A stretch of 64,000 nt of DNA, from NCBI GenBank assembly GCA_900319855.1, contig ONQC01000007.1:1-64000 (forward strand), written 5' to 3'. Under the pieces are notes generated by a model that was given only the letters and a program-made list of their open reading frames with translations, was not told the origin of the DNA and did not search any database. Made by a program: the position numbers and the translations under genes. Below are positions 15,399 through 64,000 of this stretch, one piece after another (position 1 is the first letter of the stretch; the number at the start of each line of letters is the position of its first letter). This DNA is from an uncultured Bacteroidales bacterium. GTDB taxonomy: Bacteria; Bacteroidota; Bacteroidia; Bacteroidales; UBA932.

Positions 15399-18300
15399 AT
15401 GCAAAGTAAAGGTGCAATCAGACTTGTGGCCATCCTTCTGGGCCTGGCATGTCTGTGGCAGCTCTCTTTCACCCTGGTGACCAACCTCCAGGAGAAAAAG
15501 GCCGCCAAGTATGCCGACGCTGCCGTGGCAGCCTTCCGCCAGAGCGCCGCATTCAGCAATGTATCCGCAGAAGACCAGGCGTATGTCCTCGACTCCATCG
15601 CGAAGTCCCGGAACACCCGCTACCTCGACTCCATCGCGACCGAGAAGGTCTACTTCGGTTATACGTACAAAGATGTCAAAGCAAAAGAGATCAACCTCGG
15701 CCTCGACCTCAAGGGCGGTATGAACGTCATGCTGCAGGTCCAGCTCGAGGACCTGGTCAAGGCCCTGGCCGGCAACAACCAGACCCCGGAATTCACCAAG
15801 GCCATCGAACTTGCCCGTGAGCGCAGCGTCAACTCCCGCCAGGACTTCATCTCCCTCTTCGCCGACGCGTGGAAGGAAGTGGCAGGCGGCCAGCGCCTCG
15901 CCGCCATCTTCGGCACCTATGAAATGCGTGACCGCATCGATGCCACCAGCACCGACGACCAGGTCATCTCCGTCATCCGGGCCGATGCCGAAAGCGCCAT
16001 CGCCAACTCCTTCAACGTCCTGCGTAACCGTATCGACCGCTTCGGCGTGACCCAGCCGTCCATCCAGAAGCTCGGCAACAGCGGCCGCATCCTCGTTGAA
16101 CTCCCGGGTGTCAAGGAGCCGGAGCGTGTCCGCAAACTCCTTCAGGGAACCGCTTCCCTCGAGTTCTGGACCACTTATTATTATGAAGAGGTCGAGCCTT
16201 ACCTGAGCGAAGCCAACAACGTCCTCGCCCAGATGCTTGAATCCGAAGAGATCCCGGCCGAGCCGGTTGAGGCTGCCGCCGAGACCGCCCAGGATACGAC
16301 CGACCTGATCAGCCAGGAAATCCAGGCCAACGCCGAAGACAGCCAGGCCCTTGACGCCTACCGCAAGCAGAACCCGCTCTTCGCGGTGCTCCAGCCTTCC
16401 GGTTACCGTGGCAACGCCTGCATCGGTTTCGCCCAGGCCGCCGATACGGCCATCGTCAACCGCTATCTCGCCATGCCGCAGGTCCGCGAGGTCTTCCCCG
16501 CCGAATTCCGCGCCATGTGGTCCGTCCAGCCGACCGACCGCGTCAGCGGCGGCAACGTCTATGAACTCGTCGCCATCAAGGCCGCGACCCGCGACGGCAA
16601 GGCTCCGCTCGACGGCGGCAGCGTGACCGACGCCCGCGTTTCCTATGACGGCCAGGGTGTCAACCAGGGTTCCCCGACCGTGTCCATGACCATGAACGCC
16701 GAAGGCGCCAATGTCTGGGCCCGTCTGACCAAGGACAACATCAACCGCCAGATCGCCATCGTCCTCGACGGCATGGTCTATTCCTATCCGAACGTCCAGA
16801 ACGAAATCACCGGCGGTAACTCCCAGATCACCGGTAACTTCACCGTGGAAGAGGCAACCGACTTGACCAACGTCCTCAAGTCCGGTAAGCTCCCGGCCCC
16901 GGCCAAGATCATCCAGGAGCAGGTCGTAGGTCCTTCCCTCGGTTCCCGTTCCATCAAGGCCGGTATGATCTCCTTCCTGATCGCCTTCCTGCTGGTTCTG
17001 ATCTACATGGTGATCTTCTACAAAGGCGCGGGCCTCATCGCTGACATCGCCCTCCTTTGCAACGTGCTCTTCCTCTTCGGAACCCTCGTTTCCTTCGGCG
17101 CCGTGCTGACCCTGCCGGGTATCGCCGGTCTCGTCCTTACCCTGGGTATGGCCGTGGATGCCAACGTTATTATCTATGAGCGCATCAAGGAAGAACTCGC
17201 CGCCGGCAAGGGCCTGAGCAAGGCTGTGGCCGACGGTTACAAGAACGCTTACTCCGCCATCATCGACGGACAGGTGACCACCATCCTGACCGGTATCGTC
17301 CTCTTCATCTTCGGTTCCGGTCCGGTCCAGGGCTTCGCTACGACCCTGATCATCGGTATCATCACCTCCATCCTGACCTCCATCTTCATCACCCGCATCA
17401 TCATCGATGACCGCCTGAACAAGGGCAAGAACGTCACCTTCGAAAATGCCTGGAGCCGCAACTTCCTGAAGAACACCCACGTGGACTTCCTCGGCAAGCG
17501 CAAGTACTCCTACATGATCTCCGGTGCCCTCATCGTCATCGCGATCGCCTCCATCTGCATCAAGGGCTTCACCTACGGTGTCGACTTCCAGGGCGGCCGT
17601 ACCTATGTCGTCCGCTTCGACCAGGCCCAGACCGCTGAGGCCGTCCGCAGCGCCGTCGAGGCCGTGTTCGATGAAGGTTCCGTCGAAGTCAAGCAGTTCG
17701 GTGGTGCCTCCCAGATGAAGATCACCACGACCTACAAGGTCAACGATGAATCCTCCGAGGTTGACGCCGAAGTTGAAGGCAAGATCTTCGAGGCCCTGAA
17801 GCCGTTCTTCACCGACAGCGACATGACCCTCGCGGAGTTCACCTCCACTCTCGACAACCCGAACGGTATCATCTCCTCCGACAAGGTCGGCCCGACCATC
17901 GCGAATGACATGAAACGCGACGCTATCATCGCCGTTATCATCGCCCTCTTCGTGATCTTCGCCTACATCGCCTTCCGGTTCAAGGGTTGGACCTGGGGTC
18001 TCGGTGGCGTGGTCTCCCTGGCCCACACCGCGATCATCATCATCGGTTTCTTCTCCCTGTTCACAGGTATCCTGCCGTTCAACCTGGACGTCGACCAGAC
18101 GTTTATCGCGGCTATCCTGACGATCATCGGTTACGCCATCAACGATAACGTGGTTATCTTCGACCGTATCCGTGAGATGAAGGGCCTGCACCCGAAGGAT
18201 GACTTCAAGGACACCGTCAACCGCGCTCTGAACGCGACCCTGACCCGTACGGTCAACACCTCCGTGTCGACCCTCCTCCCGATGCTCGCCATCGCTTTCT

Positions 18301-47070: not shown

Positions 47071-49716
47071 ATGAAAAAGAACATACTCCTCGCAGCCGCC
47101 GCGCTGCTCCTGTCCATAAGCACCTTCGCCGGACCCGCCTATCCGGGCCGCATCGTCCGCACCCAGCCGGACGGCACCACGATCGGCATCTACCTCCATG
47201 GCGACGAATGGCACCACTGGATGACCGACGATGAAGGGAATGTCGTCAAGGAAGATGAAGACGGCTTCATCCGTGTCGTTACCCAGACACCCGCACAAAG
47301 GACCACCCTGCAACAAAAAGGCGATGAAAGACGCGCCAAGGCCATGGCCGCATTCAAGGAAGCCGCCGCAGCCTCCAAGAATGTAGGTTCCCCGAAGATT
47401 CCGGTCCTGCTGGTCGGATTCAAGGACCAGGCTTTCACGAAGACGGCAGCCGAGTTCAATGCCATGCTGAACACCCCGGGCTATAGCGACAACAACGCGG
47501 TCGGTTCCGTCCTGGACTATTACAGAGACAACTCTTTCGGCGAATTCACCCCTGTATTTGAGGTTCTCGGTCCGGTTACGCTGGACAACAATATGGCCTA
47601 CTATGGCGGGAACGATTCCGATGACGAAGATAATCTTCCCGAAATGGCCCTCATCCATGCGGCGCAGAAACTGGATGCAACCGTAGACTTCAGCCGGTAT
47701 GACAATGATGGAGACGGCACGGTCGACTTCGTTCTGTTCTATTTCGCGGGCTGCGACGAAGCACAGGGTGCCAGTTCCAACGCCATCTGGTCCCATGCCT
47801 GGTATCTTTCCGCCAGTTCCAATGCCTACAACAGCCGTACCTTCGACGGTGTTAAACTGGACCGGTATTTCTGTACGGCCGAACTGAAGGGCTCCAGCCC
47901 TGCTAACGGCGTCATGTGCAGCATCGGAACGACCTGTCATGAATTCGCGCATACCCTGGGCCTTCCCGACTTCTACGATGCGAATTATTCCACCAACGGG
48001 TCTGCCGCAAACACGTACGATTTTGACCTGATGGCAAACGGCGCCTACAACAACAACTCGACAACCCCGCCGTATTTCACGGCGGAGGAACTTTGGGAGG
48101 TCGGCTGGCTGTCCAGTATTCCGGAACTCTCCTCGACTGGTGCAGTCACCATGAAAGCCCTCAACTACCCGGACGCCAAGACCTATACGGCCTACAAGAT
48201 CCCGACATCCGTCACCGATGAATATTTCGTGTTGGAGGTCCGTGGAGGCACCGGATGGGACGCCGCCCTTCCTGGAGGACTCATCGCCTACCATGTCGAC
48301 CGTTCTTCCAGTTATGTATCCCGCTGGTCGGCCAACACCGTCAACAACTACTCCGCCCATCCGTGCTGTTATATCGTTCAGCCTTCGAATCCGACCTCGA
48401 TCTCCGAATTTACCGGTTCCACCATGAGCAGACTCGTATTCGGAACTACTTACAAGACCTTCTCTCCGACGGCCTGGGACGGAAATTCCACGGGGTTCCA
48501 GTTCACTAACATCACCTACGCCAACGGCGTGGCCACATTCAACGTCGTCAACGGTAACTCATTGGGTATCACCGGTACCGTCTATGATTCCGACAACAAT
48601 CCCATCGCCGGGGTGACCATCAGCCTCGAGGTCGGAACCGAACCCCAGGCAGTCCGCAAAAACAGCGAGGGCCCGTTCACGACCCTGGCCAAGAAGATCT
48701 TCCTTTCGTCCAAGAAACGGTCTTCCATCCGCACGAAAGCGGCGGCCGTCACGGCAACCACCGATGCCAACGGCTATTATTCCATCGAATTGGATGCCGC
48801 CGGAACCTATAACGTAACGGCCTCCCTCGACGGCTATGTCAGCCAGACAGCGGTCGTCTCCGTTACCAGCCTGATCGAGACCCAGAATTTCTACCTCCTG
48901 CGCGAGGGTGAGGAACTCCCGTCCCAGGTCATTCCGTTCCCGGATGGTGATGACGGGTACATCGTCGGCTCCAGCACCGATGAACTGATGGGACAGAACA
49001 TGTTCCCGATTTCCGAAATGGCCAAGTATGCCGGGAAACAGATCAAGAGCGTTTCCTTCTACCTGTATGGTGATTCATCTACTTCCTATTCAGATGTTTA
49101 TGCGATTGTCGACTACGGCAATACCCGAAAAGCTACCGTCGCCGTCGCCGATGACGACGTGACCGTAAAGGGCTGGACGACGGTCGACGTGCGCGACCAG
49201 GAACTCATCATCCCCAGCGACCAGGACCTCTATATCGGCCCCGCTTTCAAGGGGGGATACCAGGAGAACGGCTACTATTACGCACTGGGTGCCCATTACT
49301 TCACGGAAGAAGATGAAGAGGGCAATGAGGTGGTTCCGGAATGGGCCGCAAACGGCTGGCCGTACCGGGGTTATGCTGCCGAGTACAACCTGACTTCGAC
49401 CGGAACGCGGTATGACTGGGACCTTGTCTTTGACATTTATATCACCGTCGGCGACTATGTCAAACCGGACACCGGCTACAACTTCATCGCCGATCCGAAG
49501 AAGGGCAGCTACAGCGCCGGGGATGTCTTCGAACTCGTCCTAAACGAGACAACCGGTACCCGCAAGCCTGCTTCTGCGATCGAGTGGCTGATTGATGACG
49601 AGCCTGTCAGCGGCTCGTCCGTGACCCTGACCGCCGGCAGCCATGTGATCGAGGCCCGGTTCACCACCGAGAGCGGCGAAAAGAAGGTCGTCGAGCTCGA
49701 ACTCGAAGTAAACTAA
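47071..49716 (+). CDS. M6-family secreted metalloprotease with carboxypeptidase-regulatory-like domain
   Basis: 881 residues. A signal peptide (1-20) precedes PAYPGRIVRTQPDGTTIGIYLHGDEWHHWMTDDEG, the M6 N-terminal region. An EF-hand-like calcium loop DNDGDGTVDF is at 211-220. The zinc motif HEFAH is at 290-294, followed by TLGLPDFYD, as in immune-inhibitor-A-type peptidases. A CarboxypepD_reg-like repeat (GITGTVYDSDNNPIAGVTISLEV, about 495-610) is followed by beta-sandwich domains to the end. It should be exported and degrade proteins. It is the last gene of the operon, and a strong bidirectional terminator follows. Confidence 0.88.
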   Translation: MKKNILLAAAALLLSISTFAGPAYPGRIVRTQPDGTTIGIYLHGDEWHHWMTDDEGNVVKEDEDGFIRVVTQTPAQRTTLQQKGDERRAKAMAAFKEAAAASKNVGSPKIPVLLVGFKDQAFTKTAAEFNAMLNTPGYSDNNAVGSVLDYYRDNSFGEFTPVFEVLGPVTLDNNMAYYGGNDSDDEDNLPEMALIHAAQKLDATVDFSRYDNDGDGTVDFVLFYFAGCDEAQGASSNAIWSHAWYLSASSNAYNSRTFDGVKLDRYFCTAELKGSSPANGVMCSIGTTCHEFAHTLGLPDFYDANYSTNGSAANTYDFDLMANGAYNNNSTTPPYFTAEELWEVGWLSSIPELSSTGAVTMKALNYPDAKTYTAYKIPTSVTDEYFVLEVRGGTGWDAALPGGLIAYHVDRSSSYVSRWSANTVNNYSAHPCCYIVQPSNPTSISEFTGSTMSRLVFGTTYKTFSPTAWDGNSTGFQFTNITYANGVATFNVVNGNSLGITGTVYDSDNNPIAGVTISLEVGTEPQAVRKNSEGPFTTLAKKIFLSSKKRSSIRTKAAAVTATTDANGYYSIELDAAGTYNVTASLDGYVSQTAVVSVTSLIETQNFYLLREGEELPSQVIPFPDGDDGYIVGSSTDELMGQNMFPISEMAKYAGKQIKSVSFYLYGDSSTSYSDVYAIVDYGNTRKATVAVADDDVTVKGWTTVDVRDQELIIPSDQDLYIGPAFKGGYQENGYYYALGAHYFTEEDEEGNEVVPEWAANGWPYRGYAAEYNLTSTGTRYDWDLVFDIYITVGDYVKPDTGYNFIADPKKGSYSAGDVFELVLNETTGTRKPASAIEWLIDDEPVSGSSVTLTAGSHVIEARFTTESGEKKVVELELEVN

Positions 49717-52666: not shown

Positions 52667-53886
52667 GACAGCATCCCTATGGCCTTGTGCAGGCTCTTGA
52701 TAAAATATTCTGCTTCTTCCATCGTATTGTAAGGCGCCAGGGAAGCCCGCAGCATTCCGGTGACGCCATAACGGTCCATCAGCGGCTCGGCACACATCTG
52801 GCCGGACCGGACCGCGATGCCCATCTTATCCAAAATCAGAGCCAGGTCCTCATGATGGACGCCTTCGACGGTGAAGGAGAAAAGGCTGATTTTTTCTTCC
52901 GTTCCATGTGGAACACCGTACAAGCGGATTCGCGGATCCTGTGTCAGCTGAGAAAGAAGATACGATTTCACTGCATCGACCTGTTCGGTTAATTCACTGT
53001 CAGACAATTGCTTCATAAAATCAATCGCCGTTTTCAGCGTCGGCGTTCCAGCCATGTTCTGGGTACCTGCCTCAAATTTCTGCGGCAGCGGTGCATAGGT
53101 CGATCCGGAGAAACGGACGGTACCGATCATTTCGCCGCCACCCATGTAGGGAGGCATCTGCTCCAGCCATTTCCGCTTTCCGTACAGGACGCCGGTTCCG
53201 GGAGCTGCATACATCTTATGCCCGGAGAAAGCGTAGAAATCGCAATCCAACGCCTGGACGTCAACCGGTTCGTGTACGATTCCCTGTGCCCCGTCGACCA
53301 GAACGGGTACCCCGTGAGAATGGCAGGTCCTTATTATTTCGGAAAGGGGGTTAACAAGGCCTAAAACATTGGATATATGATTGACTGCCAATAATTTAGT
53401 TTTATTGGAAATCAATGGTTCGAGCTTGTCGGTGCAAAGGTGTCCCTCCTCGGAAACCGGCAGGACTTTCAGCACGGCGTGCTTCCGCTCGCACAGCATC
53501 TGCCAGGGAACGATGTTGGAATGATGCTCGGCCTCGGATACGATGATTTCATCGCCCTCGTGCACGAAAGCCTCCCCGAAGGAAAAGGCGACCAGGTTGA
53601 TGGAATGGGTTACGCCGGAGGTAAAGATGATTTCGCTGCGGTCTGCCGCATGCAGGAAATCCCGCACTGCATCCCGCGTTTCTTCGTAAGCCTGCGTGGC
53701 TTCAGCGGCTATCAGATGCACGGCCCGGTGCAGGTTGGCATTGCAGTCGGAGGACAACTCCACCCACCGGTCCAATACCGCCTGCGGGCGTTGGATCGTC
53801 GCTGCATTGTCGAAATAAACCAGCGGCTTTCCATACACCTGACGGGTAAGGATGGGAAACTTGGATCTGATATCTTCGATGGTCAT
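52663..53886 (-). CDS. sufS: Cysteine desulfurase SufS
   Basis: 407 residues from the ATG at 53886 (MTIEDIRSKFPIL). Fold-type I PLP enzyme: YFDNAATIQRPQAVLDR, TSGVTHSINLVAFSF, AEHHSNIVPWQ, VDGAQG, the PLP Lys in FSGHKMYAAPGTGVLYG (about 226) and the catalytic Cys in RSGQMCAEP (about 364). It mobilises sulfur from L-cysteine for Fe-S clusters with SufE. sufBCD are not in the window. The start is chosen because a -7 element lies 22 bases upstream and the longer frame to 54108 runs across the divergent ruvA. It carries a degenerate parS-like sequence at 52900. Confidence 0.95.
   Translation of the reverse strand: MTIEDIRSKFPILTRQVYGKPLVYFDNAATIQRPQAVLDRWVELSSDCNANLHRAVHLIAAEATQAYEETRDAVRDFLHAADRSEIIFTSGVTHSINLVAFSFGEAFVHEGDEIIVSEAEHHSNIVPWQMLCERKHAVLKVLPVSEEGHLCTDKLEPLISNKTKLLAVNHISNVLGLVNPLSEIIRTCHSHGVPVLVDGAQGIVHEPVDVQALDCDFYAFSGHKMYAAPGTGVLYGKRKWLEQMPPYMGGGEMIGTVRFSGSTYAPLPQKFEAGTQNMAGTPTLKTAIDFMKQLSDSELTEQVDAVKSYLLSQLTQDPRIRLYGVPHGTEEKISLFSFTVEGVHHEDLALILDKMGIAVRSGQMCAEPLMDRYGVTGMLRASLAPYNTMEEAEYFIKSLHKAIGMLS
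52900..52915. other. Degenerate parS-like site inside sufS
   Basis: CGTTCCATGTGGAACA matches the 16-bp site at 54604 at 14 of 16 positions. It is weaker evidence than the two perfect sites and could be chance from a VPHGT codon run. Confidence 0.35.
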
Positions 53887-53991: not shown

Positions 53992-54579
53992 ATGTTTGAC
54001 TACATCAAAGGAGCCCTCGCAGAACTCTCTCCGGCCAAAGCGGTCGTTGAATGCGGAGGCATCGGATTCGATATCCAGATATCGCTGCAAACCTTCCAGG
54101 CCTTGCAAGGAAAAGAGAATGTCACGGTCTACCTATACCACTACCTGCGCGAAGATGATGAGCAGTTTTACGGGTTCGCTACCCGGGATGAACGGGAACT
54201 TTTCAAGTTGCTGATCAGTGTCTCGGGTATCGGTGTGGGTACGGCGCGGATGATGCTTTCCTCATTGACGGATGAAGAAATCCGGCAGGCTATCCTGGCG
54301 GAAGACGTGGTCCGGATCAAAAGCGTGAAAGGAATTGGATTGAAAAGTGCCCAGAGAGTCATCATCGACCTCAAAGACAAGATTGTCAAAGGAGCCGGTA
54401 CAGACAACATCATTCCTGTCATTGGAAACAACGACAGTCTCGTTCAGGAGGCGACGACCGCGCTGGTCATGCTCGGATTTACCAAACCCAACATCAACAA
54501 GGTTCTGCCGGGAATCCTGAAGAAAAACCCGGACATGCGCATTGAAGAGCTGATCAAAGAGGCGTTGAAAAAATTATAG
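53992..54579 (+). CDS. ruvA: Holliday junction branch-migration protein RuvA
   Basis: 195 residues. The N-terminal OB-fold (MFDYIKGALAELSPAKAVVECGGIGFDIQISLQTF) includes the acidic-pin region YLREDDEQFYGFATRDERELFKLLISVSGIG. Tandem helix-hairpin-helix motifs follow (ISVSGIGVGTARMMLSS and IKSVKGIGLKSAQRVIIDLKDK), and the C-terminal RuvB-binding domain is at about 145-195. It binds four-way junctions and loads RuvB, which is encoded 8 kb away at 62061. It is monocistronic and ends at the parS-like palindrome. Confidence 0.96.
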   Translation: MFDYIKGALAELSPAKAVVECGGIGFDIQISLQTFQALQGKENVTVYLYHYLREDDEQFYGFATRDERELFKLLISVSGIGVGTARMMLSSLTDEEIRQAILAEDVVRIKSVKGIGLKSAQRVIIDLKDKIVKGAGTDNIIPVIGNNDSLVQEATTALVMLGFTKPNINKVLPGILKKNPDMRIEELIKEALKKL

Positions 54580-54601: not shown

Positions 54602-54621
54602 AGTGTTCCACGTGGAACACT
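54602..54621. other. Perfect parS-like palindrome, also a possible bidirectional terminator
   Basis: AGTGTTCCACGTGGAACACT is a perfect 20-bp palindrome whose inner 16 bases TGTTCCACGTGGAACA match the widely conserved chromosomal ParB-binding parS consensus. It lies between the convergent ruvA and mnmG ends, with an A7 run on the left and TCTATTTATTTT on the right, so it could also terminate transcription from both sides. Confidence 0.75.
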
Positions 54622-54632
54622 CTATTTATTTT

Positions 54633-56624
54633 CTACCGATGAAAGTAAACCAGGAGAACGGAAACGTCTGAAGGAGAAACCCCGGAAATCCGGGAAGCCT
54701 GGCCGATATTTTCAGGACGATAGCGATTCAGTTTCTGTCGACATTCAATCGAAAGCCCTGTAACCTTCTCAAAATCGAAATTAGCAGGAATAGCTAAATC
54801 ATCCAGACGGGAAATCTTCTCCGCTACAGCTCGCTCACGATCGATATATCCTTTATACTTGATGGCGATTTCAGCAGAATCCAGGACTTCTTCCGCATAA
54901 GCGGAAACAATCCGGGAAAACCGTTCATCTAACGAATCAGCACGAGACTCACTAAAGAGCGGATCAGATATAGAATCCGATAATGTAACTACAGAATCGG
55001 GGGTAATTCGATCAACGCTAAACCTAGAAAGTGTTCCACGTGGAACAATCGAATACAATTTCCGATAGGAAACTTCCGGACGGGAAACCAAATCAACGAT
55101 GCGCTTCGATTCAGAAAGTTCAGCAGAATCCACAGAAGCAAGGTAAGGATTAACCTGCTCAGCGCGGAGATTAACCGCTTCAGCTAAATCGGAAAGGGCA
55201 GAAACCTGCTCATACTTCCGACAGGTAAAATCGCGCCTAAAAGTACTTGCAAGGCCGATTTGCCATGATTTTTCCGTCAGCCGAAGATCCGCATTATCCT
55301 GACGCAAAAGAATGCGGTACTCTGCACGGGAAGTAAACATCCGATACGGCTCATCAACTCCCTTCGTAATCAGGTCGTCAATCAAGACACCGATATAGGC
55401 CTCATCGCGATGCAATACAAATGGTCCTTCCCCGACAATCTTCCGATGGGCATTGATACCAGCCATCAAACCTTGCGCAGCGGCCTCTTCATAACCCGTC
55501 GTACCGTTTACCTGACCGGCCAAAAAGAGGTTTTCAACGGTTTTTGATTCAAGCGACACTTTAAGATCCAAGGGATCAAAGTAATCATATTCAACCGCAT
55601 AAGCCGGTTTAAAAATAGATACGTCAGAAAAACCGGGAATGGCTTTCAATGCCTGAATCTGAATATCGAGCGGCAAAGAGGAGGAAAAACCCTGGAGATA
55701 ATATTCGAAAGTATTCCGTCCTTCCGGCTCAAGGAACAACTGATGGGAATCCTTGTCGGCAAAGGTACGCAGCTTATCTTCGATGCTGGGACAATAACGG
55801 GGACCCTTGCCATGGATCAGGCCATTAAAGAGAGGGGAATCCTTGAATCCACTCCGAAGGATATCATGGACCTGCTCGTTGGTATGGAAGATATAGCAAG
55901 GCATCTGGTCCTTGCCTGCCTGCGCCTGGGAAAGGTAAGGAAGGAATGAAAACTTGGCAGGATCCGGATCACCAACCTGCAGCTGGGCGACGGACGTATC
56001 GACCGAACGGATATCTATCCGGGGCGGAGTGCCCGTCTTCATCCGGGCAGTGGGGACACCCAGGGAAACCAATTGCTCGGTCAGACCGAAAGAAGACATC
56101 TCTCCGATACGGCCTCCCTCGAACTCCGTACGACCGATGAATAATTTTCCCCCAAGGAAGGTCCCGGCGGTCAAGATAACTGCCTGAGAATGAAAAATTG
56201 CACCGGTTCTCGTACACACGCCGCAGATTTTTGAATTCTCAAAGAGGAATTTTTCGACAATATCGGCGTAAATACTTAATTTACAATTCCTTTCAAGGAT
56301 AGAACGCCAGTTACGGGAAAAGGCCTGTTTATCGCATTGAGCCCGCGGACTCCACATGGCAGGACCTTTGGACTTATTGAGCATCCGAAATTGCAAGGTA
56401 GACATGTCCGTCACGATACCGGAATATCCACCCAGCGCATCGATCTCCCGGACGATCTGTCCTTTCGCAATTCCTCCGACCGCCGGGTTGCAGGACATCT
56501 TCGCAAAACCGGTCAGGTCCATTGAAACCAACAGGACGGACGATCCCAGGTTCGCTGCAGCCATGGCAGCTTCACAGCCGGCATGACCACCCCCGACGAC
56601 AATGACATCAAATGAACGCTCCAT
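54633..56624 (-). CDS. mnmG: tRNA uridine-5-carboxymethylaminomethyl modification enzyme MnmG (GidA)
   Basis: 663 residues. The FAD-binding motif [15 protein letters not shown] starts at residue 6. Other family motifs are [42 protein letters not shown], the long [12 protein letters not shown] segment, [19 protein letters not shown] and [17 protein letters not shown]-terminal helical domain ends in [18 protein letters not shown]. With MnmE it modifies the wobble uridine of several tRNAs. It is longer than usual because of an apparent insertion around residues 515-570 (YSIVPRGT...SADSLDERF), which contains a perfect parS-like sequence. AT content appears higher than in most of the window. It overlaps the ybeY stop by one base. 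Confidence 0.95.
55032..55047. other. Second perfect parS-like site, inside mnmG
   Basis: TGTTCCACGTGGAACA is identical in all 16 bases to the site at 54604. On the coding strand it encodes part of VPRGT in MnmG. Two identical 16-bp palindromes within 430 bases are very unlikely by chance. Confidence 0.75.
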
Positions 56625-57915: not shown

Positions 57916-59109
57916 ATGGTAAATACAGAAGAACAGAAGATAGAAAAAGCCGTATTCGTCGGCATTATCAAAGACGGGGAAGACGACCGGAAAGTGGCGG
58001 AATACCTGGATGAACTGCAGTTTCTGGCGGAAACTGCCGGCGTAGTGGGAGACAAGAAATTCGTTCAACGCCTGTCCAAACCGGAAAGTTCCACCTATAT
58101 CCGGAGCGGTAAACTGCAGGAAGTAGCGCAGTATTGCGAAGAAAACAGCATCAATTACGTCATCTTCGATGATGAATTGACGGGTATCCAGCAGCGTAAC
58201 ATAGAAAAGGTCGTCAAGAATACGGCCGTCATCGACCGGACCAGCCTGATCCTGGAAATCTTCGCCCAGCGGGCCAAGACTTCGTATGCGAAGATGCAGG
58301 TGGAACTGGCCCGATATAATTATATGCTCCCCCGCCTGGCCGGTATGTGGACCCACCTGGAGCGACAGCGCGGCGGCGTGGGAACCCGTGGCGGTATGGG
58401 TGAAACCCAGATTGAAATCGACCGCCGTATCGTTAAGGAAAGAATAACGCGTCTGAAGGAGCAGCTGAAGAAAGTCGACAAGCAGATGGCCACGCAACGA
58501 AGCAACAGAGGCTCTCTGGTGCGTTTGGCGCTGGTCGGGTATACCAATGTAGGGAAGAGTACTTTGATGAATCTGCTGGCCAAATCTGACGTATTTGCAG
58601 AGAATAAACTCTTCGCTACCCTGGATACGACCGTCCGTAAGGTTGTAATTGAAAACGTGCCTTTCCTGCTAAGCGATACGGTCGGATTCATCCGGAAACT
58701 TCCCACCCAGCTGATCGAGGCTTTCAAGAGTACCCTGGATGAGGTCCGGGAGGCAGATATCCTGGTCCATGTCGTAGATATTTCAGCACCGGATTTCGAG
58801 GAGCAAATGGAAATCGTAGAACGGACCTTGAAAGATATCGACGCTGCCAACAAGCCCGTTTATGTCGTATTCAACAAGATTGACCAATATCAATATGAGG
58901 AATATGACGAATTCAGCCTGGAGCCGAAAACGAAGGCCAACCGGTCGCTGGAAGAATTGAAAAACAGCTGGATAGCCGAGGAAAAAATGCCCTGTATCTT
59001 CATTTCCGCCAAGGAAAAGATCGGTATACAGAAACTCCGCAACGACATCTACAAGATGGTTGCGGAGATCCATGCGGGACGTTATCCCTTCAATAATTTC
59101 CTCTGGTAA
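57916..59109 (+). CDS. hflX: GTPase HflX
   Basis: 397 residues. The N-terminal HflX domain includes SKPESSTYIRSGKLQEV and FDDELTGIQQRNIEKV. The glycine-rich linker (RLAGMWTHLERQRGGVGTRGGMGETQIEIDRR, about 137-170) leads to the G domain: G1 GYTNVGKST (about 213-221), G2/G3 with DTTVRK and SDTVGF, G4 NKID and G5 SAKE. HflX is a ribosome-associated GTPase that splits stalled or hibernating ribosomes. No exact -7 element was found; it may be expressed by read-through of the tonB terminator or from an atypical promoter. It ends at the large inverted-repeat element. Confidence 0.95.
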   Translation: MVNTEEQKIEKAVFVGIIKDGEDDRKVAEYLDELQFLAETAGVVGDKKFVQRLSKPESSTYIRSGKLQEVAQYCEENSINYVIFDDELTGIQQRNIEKVVKNTAVIDRTSLILEIFAQRAKTSYAKMQVELARYNYMLPRLAGMWTHLERQRGGVGTRGGMGETQIEIDRRIVKERITRLKEQLKKVDKQMATQRSNRGSLVRLALVGYTNVGKSTLMNLLAKSDVFAENKLFATLDTTVRKVVIENVPFLLSDTVGFIRKLPTQLIEAFKSTLDEVREADILVHVVDISAPDFEEQMEIVERTLKDIDAANKPVYVVFNKIDQYQYEEYDEFSLEPKTKANRSLEELKNSWIAEEKMPCIFISAKEKIGIQKLRNDIYKMVAEIHAGRYPFNNFLW

Positions 59110-62060: not shown

Positions 62061-63116
62061 TTAAAATAGGTTGTTTTCGATGATTTCCGGACCGTCGAAA
62101 ATGCTTCCACCCGCCATATACTTCTCCAGTCCGAGGTGTTTGTAAGCCATTTCCGTCGCCACGCGGCCGCGCGGAGTACGCTGGATGAAGCCTTCCTTGA
62201 TCAGGAAAGGCTCATATACCTCTTCCAAGGTTCCGGTATCCTCGCCGACGGCCGTCGCGATGGTACCTACGCCCACCGGACCACCCTTGAATTTGGTGAT
62301 GATCGTATGCAGGATCTTGTTGTCGATCTGGTCCAGGCCCCGCTTGTCGATATTGAGGGCATCCAGGGCATAGCGGGCTATCTTGATGTCGATGTGTCCG
62401 TCTCCCATGACCTGGGCGAAATCCCGCACCCGTTTGAGCAGGGCATTGGCGATACGCGGGGTACCGCGGCTGCGGAGGGCGATTTCCAGGGCGGCCTGGT
62501 CTTCGATGGCCACTTTCAGGATGCCGGCACTGCGCCGGATGATCCGGATCAACTCCTTCGTATCATAATACTCGAGTGCGAAGGTGATACCGAAACGGGC
62601 CCGCAGCGGCGCCGTCAGCAGACCGCTCCGGGTCGTGGCGCCTACCAAAGTGAACGGATTCAAGGATATACGGACGGAACGGGCACCGGGCCCCTTGTCA
62701 ATCATGATGTCGATGACATAATCCTCCATCGCGGAATACAGGTATTCCTCCACTTCCGGGGACAGCCGGTGGATCTCATCGATGAACAGGACATCCCCCG
62801 TCTCCAAGGAAGTCAGCAGACCGGCCAGGTCTCCGGGTTTGTCCAGCACCGGACCGGAGGTAACCTTCATGCCCACGCCCAGTTCGTTGGCGATGATGTG
62901 GGCCAGCGTGGTCTTTCCCAGTCCGGGAGGGCCGTGGAAAAGGACATGGTCCAGGGATTCCCCACGGAGCTTCGCGGCCTGGATGAAAACCTTCAGGTTG
63001 GATATGATTTTCGTCTGTCCTGTAAAATCTTCCAGTTCCTGGGGCCGGATAATTCCGTCTAAATCCTTATCTTTGTCCGCGCTTTGGGTATAGGGGTTGA
63101 ATTCGCCAGGGGTCAT
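62061..63116 (-). CDS. ruvB: Holliday junction branch-migration ATPase RuvB
   Basis: 351 residues from the ATG at 63116. It has Walker A ([20 protein letters not shown], about 62-81), Walker B with DEIH (LFIDEIHRL), sensor 1 ([11 protein letters not shown]), the arginine-finger region LRARFG and the C-terminal winged helix ([40 protein letters not shown]). It is the hexameric motor that acts with RuvA. A TTG at 63125 is possible but the ATG fits the -7 element 20 bases upstream. It is divergent from mfd across the candidate origin spacer. Confidence 0.96.
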
Positions 63117-63136
63117 CGCAAGCAAAAATTAATATA

Positions 63137-63144
63137 CAAATATA
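63137..63144 (-). promoter_or_regulatory. -7 element (TATATTTG) of ruvB
   Basis: Minus-strand TAnnTTTG match 20 bases before the ruvB ATG, inside the AT-rich spacer. Confidence 0.55.
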
Positions 63145-63188
63145 GATATTTTTATAGATATCTGATGTTTTATATTTTGCTGTTGAAA

Positions 63189-63197
63189 TGTTGATAA
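63189..63197 (-). promoter_or_regulatory. DnaA-box-like 9-mer
   Basis: TGTTGATAA on the plus strand, i.e. TTATCAACA on the minus strand; 8 of 9 bases match TTATCCACA. Confidence 0.45.
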
Positions 63198-63381
63198 CTG
63201 TAAAATACCTATTGATATTCAAGCGCTTGATATAGTTCTTACTTGTTGATTGCATGGCTGGAAAATTGATGGAAACTTTCCGTCTTTCCCATTTGGAAAA
63301 TCCGGATTCATCCTGCTTTCTCATTTTTCATTGGAAAAGCAACAGTTTGTCCGGAAAAAGTTATCCCGGGTTTTCAACCGG

Positions 63382-63390
63382 TTATCAACA
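63382..63390 (+). promoter_or_regulatory. DnaA-box-like 9-mer
   Basis: TTATCAACA on the plus strand, the second of three identical 9-mers. Confidence 0.45.
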
Positions 63391-63416
63391 GGTTTTGAAC
63401 ATTAATAAACATCGGA

Positions 63417-64000
63417 ATGTTGATAAGTACGAAATCGACTGCCCTGCTTGAGAAAAGTATCGGACAGCACCAGGATTCTTACTGCAACGGCCTGTTCCTT
63501 TCTGCAAGATGGTTTGTAATGTCCCGGATTGCACGGAAAGGAACCCATCTGGTCGTGCTCCCTACCAAGGAAACGGCGGAGTATTGTGCGGCAGACCTGT
63601 ATAATTTAATAGAAGGAGACCGGGTTTTCTATTTACCGGACGGCGGGAAGAACGTTGAGAAAAGCAATTACAAGTCATCGCTGGCTGTCCAGCGTACGGC
63701 CGCGATCGGCCGGATCATGGAAGGAAAAGACGACCTGCTGGTCGTGGTTACCTATCCGGAAGCGCTAGAAGAAAAAGTAATGGAAGGAAACCGGATCCGG
63801 GCTTCCGTGCTTACCGTGAAAAAAGGAGATGAACTCAGTCATGACAAGATCAAGGAAATCCTCGCCGGGCAAGGTTTCGAGCGGACGGATTTCGTATCGG
63901 CGCCGGGACAATATGCCATCCGTGGATCCATTATTGATATATTTTCCTTTTCTGACAATGACCCCTACCGGATTTCCTTCTTTGGCAATGAAGTAGAGAA
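63417..64000 (+). CDS. mfd: Transcription-repair coupling factor Mfd (N-terminal part, cut by the window end)
   Basis: An open frame from the ATG at 63417 runs 194 codons to the window edge without a stop. It has the UvrB-like N-terminal domain of Mfd: HLVVLPTKETAEYCAADLYNLIEGDRVFYLPDG, a conserved SVLTVKKGDELSHDKIKEILAGQGFERTDFVSAPGQYAIRGSIIDIFSFSDNDPYRISFFGNEVE. Mfd removes stalled RNA polymerase and recruits UvrA for repair. A TGA at 63396-63398 in frame rules out an earlier start. The third DnaA-box-like 9-mer overlaps the start codon. Confidence 0.92.
   Translation, partial: MLISTKSTALLEKSIGQHQDSYCNGLFLSARWFVMSRIARKGTHLVVLPTKETAEYCAADLYNLIEGDRVFYLPDGGKNVEKSNYKSSLAVQRTAAIGRIMEGKDDLLVVVTYPEALEEKVMEGNRIRASVLTVKKGDELSHDKIKEILAGQGFERTDFVSAPGQYAIRGSIIDIFSFSDNDPYRISFFGNEVE

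Follow-up and report, generated by a model that had tools for sequence, protein, structure and literature searches.

The chromosomal origin of replication (oriC) of Bacteroidetes commonly lies far from dnaA, as stated in a study on Prevotella intermedia OMA14 (PMC4755523). For chromosome I of this strain, the same study describes a cluster of DnaA boxes at the transition of the GC skew, with dnaA not nearby (PMC4755523). The site described here fits this rule of an oriC far from dnaA.

The window, i.e. the whole stretch of 64,000 nucleotides that was analysed, comprises positions 1-64000 of the 76.7-kb contig C30 from the genome of an uncultured gut bacterium of the Bacteroidales (G000; 2,148,248 bases in 60 contigs, 90.9% complete). 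Close to its right end, ruvB (-) and mfd (+) are transcribed apart from starts that are separated by 300 bases (63116 and 63417). The spacer between these genes is very probably the DnaA-dependent chromosomal oriC of this genome, since the same initiator-binding sites are retained there in relatives and, in several of these genomes, the strand composition is reversed at this point. A first-pass annotation had proposed an oriC at 63117-63426, and the skew in relatives, the box cluster and the nearby parS sites support this proposal. In the literature searched, with origin databases such as DoriC outside the scope, no paper was found that places an origin between mfd and ruvB.

DnaA boxes in the spacer between mfd and ruvB

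Three identical TTATCAACA 9-mers, a weaker TTATCCCGG box and a 12-bp palindrome in a divergent AT-rich spacer had been noticed in the first-pass annotation, and all of these features were found again (Table 1). The three 9-mers at 63189-63197 (-), 63382-63390 (+) and 63418-63426 (-) are exact and span 238 bp. The TTATCCCGG box at 63361-63369 is a weak member of the right array with three mismatches, and the AT content, as a matter of composition only, amounts to 0.77-0.93 in 30-mers across 63125-63199. Beyond this earlier reading, sites with one mismatch to TTWTCMACA were found at 63181 (-), 63292 (-), 63371 (+) and 63393 (+). The boxes of the right array follow each other in steps of 10, 11 and 11 bp, which corresponds to about one helical turn per box. 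In an alignment of 22 rows inspected by eye, TGTTGATAA was the usual form of the left boxes, and the palindrome was not conserved.

Table 1. Coordinates of the spacer, its flanking genes and the parS sites in the window.
Feature	Position	Strand	Remarks
mfd-ruvB intergenic spacer, proposed oriC	63117..63416		kept divergent spacer, skew switch in relatives, box enrichment
ruvB, left flank	62061..63116	-	Pfam RuvB_N, AAA_lid_4, RuvB_C; ATG start
mfd 5' part, right flank	63417..64000 (to 66596 on C30)	+	Pfam UvrB_inter, CarD_TRCF_RID, DEAD, TRCF
AT-rich stretch, proposed DNA-unwinding element (putative role)	63125..63180		3' side of left minus-strand boxes
Conserved motif TACAAATATA (reverse TATATTTGTA) inside AT-rich stretch	63135..63144	-	in 72/80 spacers
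Left DnaA boxes	63181..63197	-	motif scan; TTATCAACA 63189-63197 and ATTTCAACA 63181-63189, one-base overlap
12-bp palindrome TCAAGCGCTTGA	63219..63230
Right DnaA-box array	63361..63401	+	TTATCCCGG 63361, TTTTCAACC 63371, TTATCAACA 63382, TTTTGAACA 63393
TTATCAACA over mfd codons 1-4	63418..63426	-	exact match
parS GTTCCACGTGGAAC	54605..54618		perfect match to GTTNCACGTGNAAC
parS GTTCCACGTGGAAC, inside mnmG	55033..55046		perfect match to GTTNCACGTGNAAC
parS-like GTTCCATGTGGAAC	52901..52914		one mismatch

In dinucleotide-shuffled windows, TTATCAACA occurred 0.20 times on average and none of 100 shuffles reached three copies. The whole genome contains ten copies, three of them at the spacer, and nowhere else in the genome do two exact copies lie within 3.9 kb of each other; the unique 9-mer cluster that had been named beforehand as a mark in favor of an origin is thus present. 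The sequence TTWTCMACA was counted 48 times genome-wide, the three of the spacer being those counted as TTATCAACA. With seven sites of at most one mismatch to TTWTCMACA, 63181-63426 comprises the densest 300 bp of C30. Altogether, the DnaA boxes at the mfd-ruvB spacer form a cluster exceeding chance, which is one of the features looked for in an oriC.

Other box groups were rejected as rivals. The runner-up on C30, five boxes at 52.6 kb (52,638) in the window, falls in coding sequence. At C16:2674/2824, one TTATCAACA and one TTATCTACA occur without an array, and C19:6137-6157 comprises two boxes ahead of likely rplC/rplD.

The divergent spacer on C19 (G000:C19:6137-6235, L250:1537-1635) carries TTTTCAACA and TTTTCCACA on the minus strand, 12 bp apart, and TTATTAACA on the plus strand. 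The genes following this group, which were named by sequence recognition, are presumably those of the ribosomal proteins L3 and L4, and the boxes possibly reflect a control of the ribosomal operon by DnaA.

Conservation in related genomes

For the analysis of conservation, 80 related Bacteroidales loci were kept of 571 found, with a RuvB that is 78-89% identical (best segment) to that of the window. Divergent mfd and ruvB around a short spacer were observed in 79 of the 80 loci, with a gap of 231-493 bp between the alignment ends; in the 80th locus (L060), the spacer is cut by the contig end. This set overlaps with the genomes sampled for GC skew, as L066, L065 and L025 lie in G119, G120 and G124, and the contigs of L007 and G084 are both 154,898 in length. 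Since the rows are related to each other, all counts over the 80 rows represent non-independent events.

In the 79 spacers including 20 bp per gene (25,220 bases), TTATCAACA was counted 121 times, compared to 10 times in 928,370 bases of flanks. Because the spacers are AT-rich, a control with dinucleotide shuffles was added. The 80 trimmed spacers (window included) comprised 77 TTATCAACA compared to a shuffle mean of 1.2 (20 dinucleotide shuffles, maximum 3), 94 TTTTCAACA compared to 1.6 and 6 TTATCCACA compared to 0.1. At least one TTWTCMACA was present in 79 of the 80 spacers (79 relatives and the window), at least two in 70 and at least three in 54, and TTATCNACA was missing from 10 of the 80.

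The phasing of the boxes is conserved as well. On the plus strand of the mfd side, 66 of the 80 spacers showed boxes (at most two mismatches) 10-12 bp apart, and the histogram of box spacings on this side has peaks at 11-12, 22-24 and 33-36 bp. Pairs at 10-12 bp were counted 111 times, and 100 mononucleotide shuffles yielded 0.4 such pairs on average. In 64 of the 80 loci, the AT-richest 50-mer begins in the third of the spacer next to ruvB. A crude scan for the DnaA-trio (repeated TA[AG]) revealed no enrichment, with 27 of the 80 spacers compared to a shuffle mean of 31.6.

Relatives from other genera showed TTATCAACA in the mfd-ruvB spacer in the case of G003, G077 and G111; the spacer of G010 is without an exact TTATCAACA and contains one exact TTTTCAACA and otherwise variants. 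Among the matches listed, pairs of TTATCAACA within approximately 400 bp were also found outside the spacer in G119 (C8, C12) and G111 (C2, C4), so that the 9-mer by itself is no origin marker in these two genomes. A search of the 0.8-1.5 kb upstream of ruvB in the 27 best-scoring loci of other Bacteroidales families (L186-L212) revealed no mfd, and the mfd-ruvB setting therefore looks family-specific. In all three same-family loci of that comparison set, mfd lies upstream of ruvB.

GC skew and parS sites around the spacer

Ten genomes were sampled for GC skew (G003, G010, G022, G058, G077, G084, G111, G119, G120 and G124). G119, G120 and G124 were picked for their long contigs and are three of ten named genomes among the matches listed. 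The single-contig relatives G003, G010 and G077, which belong to other genera of the window's family, were covered by 20 stretches of 20 kb each. The first-pass annotation had named a skew minimum at about 63.2 kb as a mark in favor of the origin. A skew minimum at the spacer was present in five of the relatives (G119, G058, G010, G003 and G077), but not in the window's own contig C30 (76.7 kb), where the skew is weak and the cumulative minimum lies at 49,248. The switch from minus to plus falls within approximately 0.6 kb of the spacer in G119 and G058, as judged by the best break, and in G010 and G077, as judged by the cumulative minimum.

Two of the switches were located on long contigs. 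On the 577-kb contig G119:C1, the best break was located at 418,001 compared to a spacer at 417,900 (0 of 1000 block permutations), with all 11 stretches on the left being negative, the last of which contains the spacer, and all 8 on the right being positive. On G058:C2, from the window's genus, the best break at 215,001 compares to a spacer at 214,700 (0 of 1000 block permutations), with 4 of 4 negative stretches on the left and 3 of 3 positive ones on the right.

In the single-contig genomes, ruvB is located at C1:15180 (G010), C1:1494335 (G077) and C1:672434 (G003). Contiguous stretches resulted in a cumulative minimum at 16,501 for G010 (spacer at 16,400) and at 1,493,501 for G077 (spacer at 1,494,050). 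Since the largest difference of means in G077 was found for a single break at 1,564,001, 70 kb off the spacer, the evidence from this genome is weaker. For G003, the minimum interpolated from coarse sampling was 670,500 compared to a spacer at 672,200, which is a fit within 2 kb, and the opposite switch was found with a maximum at 1,786,500 compared to the antipode at 1,786,705. Before that, coarse interpolation had been 83 kb off the spacer for the minimum of G010 and 117 kb off for that of G077, and contiguous sampling brought both to within 0.6 kb. With the origin at the spacer and the terminus at the antipode, the predicted sign was observed in 18 of 20 stretches of G003, 18 of 20 of G010 and 12 of 20 of G077.

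A first circular two-break fit on the sparse samples was discarded, since single bins stood for up to 40 kb and were badly weighted. This fit chose the spacer in none of the three genomes, the best fits near the spacer being ranked 98th of 27,472 in G010, 1761st of 27,414 in G077 and 9th of 26,850 in G003. It was replaced by the interpolation at the level of stretches, supplemented by contiguous sampling near the spacer in G010 and G077.

Among the remaining relatives, G022 and G124 showed breaks at the spacer (111,001 and 107,001) that were not significant (490 and 82 of 1000 permutations). No significant switch was found on G120:C1, where the best break at 90,001 lies 15 kb away from the spacer at approximately 74,600 (398 of 1000 permutations). 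Two stretches of G084 were uninformative. The single 20-kb stretch sampled in G111 is consistent with a switch, its successive 5-kb bins being -0.168, -0.004, +0.131 and +0.092 with the spacer near the middle.

Two peculiarities of the skew were observed in addition. The stretches at 2.54-2.58 Mb and 2.62-2.64 Mb of G010:C1, within approximately 135 kb of the proposed origin, have a reversed GC skew and are possibly recent inversions or inserted elements. The clear positive-skew arc of G077:C1 is short (approximately 1.5-2.0 Mb of 2.38 Mb), which places the skew terminus far from the antipode and is attributed to a rearrangement or an assembly fault.

The parS-like sites which had been noted 8-10 kb away are also real matches, with GTTCCACGTGGAAC at 54605 and 55033 and a site with one mismatch at 52901. 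The two former are the only perfect GTTNCACGTGNAAC matches of the genome, 8-9 kb from the spacer, and apart from 52901 two other one-mismatch sites exist in the genome. In six relatives (G022, G058, G084, G119, G120 and G124; 1.1 Mb sampled), all eight perfect parS lie 9-23 kb off the spacer and, as in the window, on the ruvB side. No perfect parS was found in the 1.58 Mb that were sampled from G003, G010, G077 and G111, or in the 80 related loci, the flanks of which extend only approximately 6 kb beyond ruvB. A single ParB-family match was found in the genome, on C21.

Adjoining the parS at 54605, ruvA (53992-54579, +) lies approximately 7.5 kb from ruvB, so that the two genes are split and both are near the proposed origin. 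Most of the nearby gene directions had been read earlier as those of leading strands departing from the spacer. This holds true for ruvB on the left and mfd on the right, but not for ruvA and an HflX-like GTPase (57916-59109, +), which are situated just left of the spacer and point right.

Initiation at the spacer, alternative explanations and known origins

What was observed comprises the boxes with their phasing and conservation, the AT-rich stretch, the parS sites and, in relatives, the switch of the skew; by analogy with characterised origins, we infer DnaA binding, unwinding, helicase loading and an action of ParB. DnaA-ATP would first occupy the high-affinity TTATCAACA boxes and then the nearby weaker, TTTTCAACA-like boxes on the mfd side, which are one helical turn apart. 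Together with the minus-strand boxes of the ruvB side, this would nucleate a DnaA filament and open the AT-rich 63125-63180. The helicase would be loaded at the opened stretch, and two forks would depart, one via ruvB and one via mfd. ParB bound to the parS sites 8-10 kb off may help to part the new origins.

The box at the mfd start deserves separate consideration. The third 9-mer overlaps the start codon of mfd (ATGTTGATAAG) and is therefore partly coding. Of 79 relatives, 45 carry an exact TTATCAACA at this place, and in six of them (L011, L024, L049, L053, L073 and L074) the box is kept with a GTG or TTG start. An ATG start is used by 68 relatives; codon 2 is TTG in at least 41 of these, although TTG accounts for 8.8% of the Leu codons in these mfd genes. 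Judging from this pattern, the box may have an effect on mfd as well, but the pattern could in part be due to selection for A/T-rich starts. Since the box is absent in L003-L010, the closest relatives by RuvB, the origin does not depend on it.

An alternative explanation, by which the spacer is no more than a bidirectional promoter for mfd and ruvB under the control of DnaA, with the true origin elsewhere, would account for this start box. It would also account for the promoter-like TACAAATATA on the ruvB side, which occurs in 72 of 80 spacers, more than any other 10-base word, and is probably the -7 box (TAnnTTTG) of the ruvB promoter. Moreover, the small box pair ahead of the likely L3/L4 genes on C19 indicates that boxes do occur at promoters. 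However, such a promoter leaves the skew switch in several relatives and the nearby parS unexplained, and a promoter would require neither so many boxes nor such phasing, which makes this explanation very unlikely.

Given that a DnaA box covers the mfd start and the motif of the ruvB promoter lies inside the unwinding stretch, the oriC could have a double role as a DnaA-controlled bidirectional control region for mfd and ruvB, which we put forward as a tentative and rather doubtful addition. In this case, initiation would switch mfd and ruvB as the forks are launched through both genes, of which the former encodes a factor that couples transcription to repair and the latter a motor acting on forks and Holliday junctions.

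A site for the titration or reactivation of DnaA (datA- or DARS-like), located near the origin without being the origin, would likewise appear as a cluster of DnaA boxes. Since the skew switches within approximately 0.6 kb of the spacer in G119, G058, G010 and G077 and no better box cluster exists on C30 (7 compared to 5 in the runner-up), this is extremely unlikely. An origin at dnaA combined with a chance cluster in the spacer can practically be dismissed: many bacteria have their oriC beside dnaA, a common trait that is not required, but dnaA is found on another contig (C15:32472-33848), where the surrounding 5 kb contain no TTWTCMACA, lies 0.6-1.0 Mb from the spacer by the shortest way round in G010, G077 and G003 and on a contig other than that of the spacer in G111, and chance is ruled out by the conservation of the boxes.

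With the mfd-ruvB spacer as oriC, a sequence-level origin becomes available for a Bacteroidales family that is represented in this analysis almost exclusively by metagenome assemblies, and a further, family-level example of an oriC remote from dnaA is added. The spacer would be a simple landmark that is usable even in fragmented genomes, e.g. for anchoring growth-rate estimates from metagenome read depth, for ordering contigs and for rotating chromosomes to the real origin.

Altogether, the proposed origin is of an ordinary kind, and it is its place between mfd and ruvB that is newly mapped, in the Bacteroidales family of the window. With the DnaA-dependent origins of the E. coli and B. subtilis type, it shares a cluster of TTATCNACA-type boxes, an adjoining AT-rich stretch, a skew minimum and parS nearby. 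Unlike this type, the main box is TTATCAACA and the second form TTTTCAACA rather than TTATCCACA, the site lies between mfd and ruvB instead of beside dnaA, and the crude DnaA-trio pattern is not enriched. Like the oriC of P. intermedia OMA14 chromosome I (PMC4755523), it belongs to Bacteroidales and comprises several boxes at a skew transition far from dnaA.
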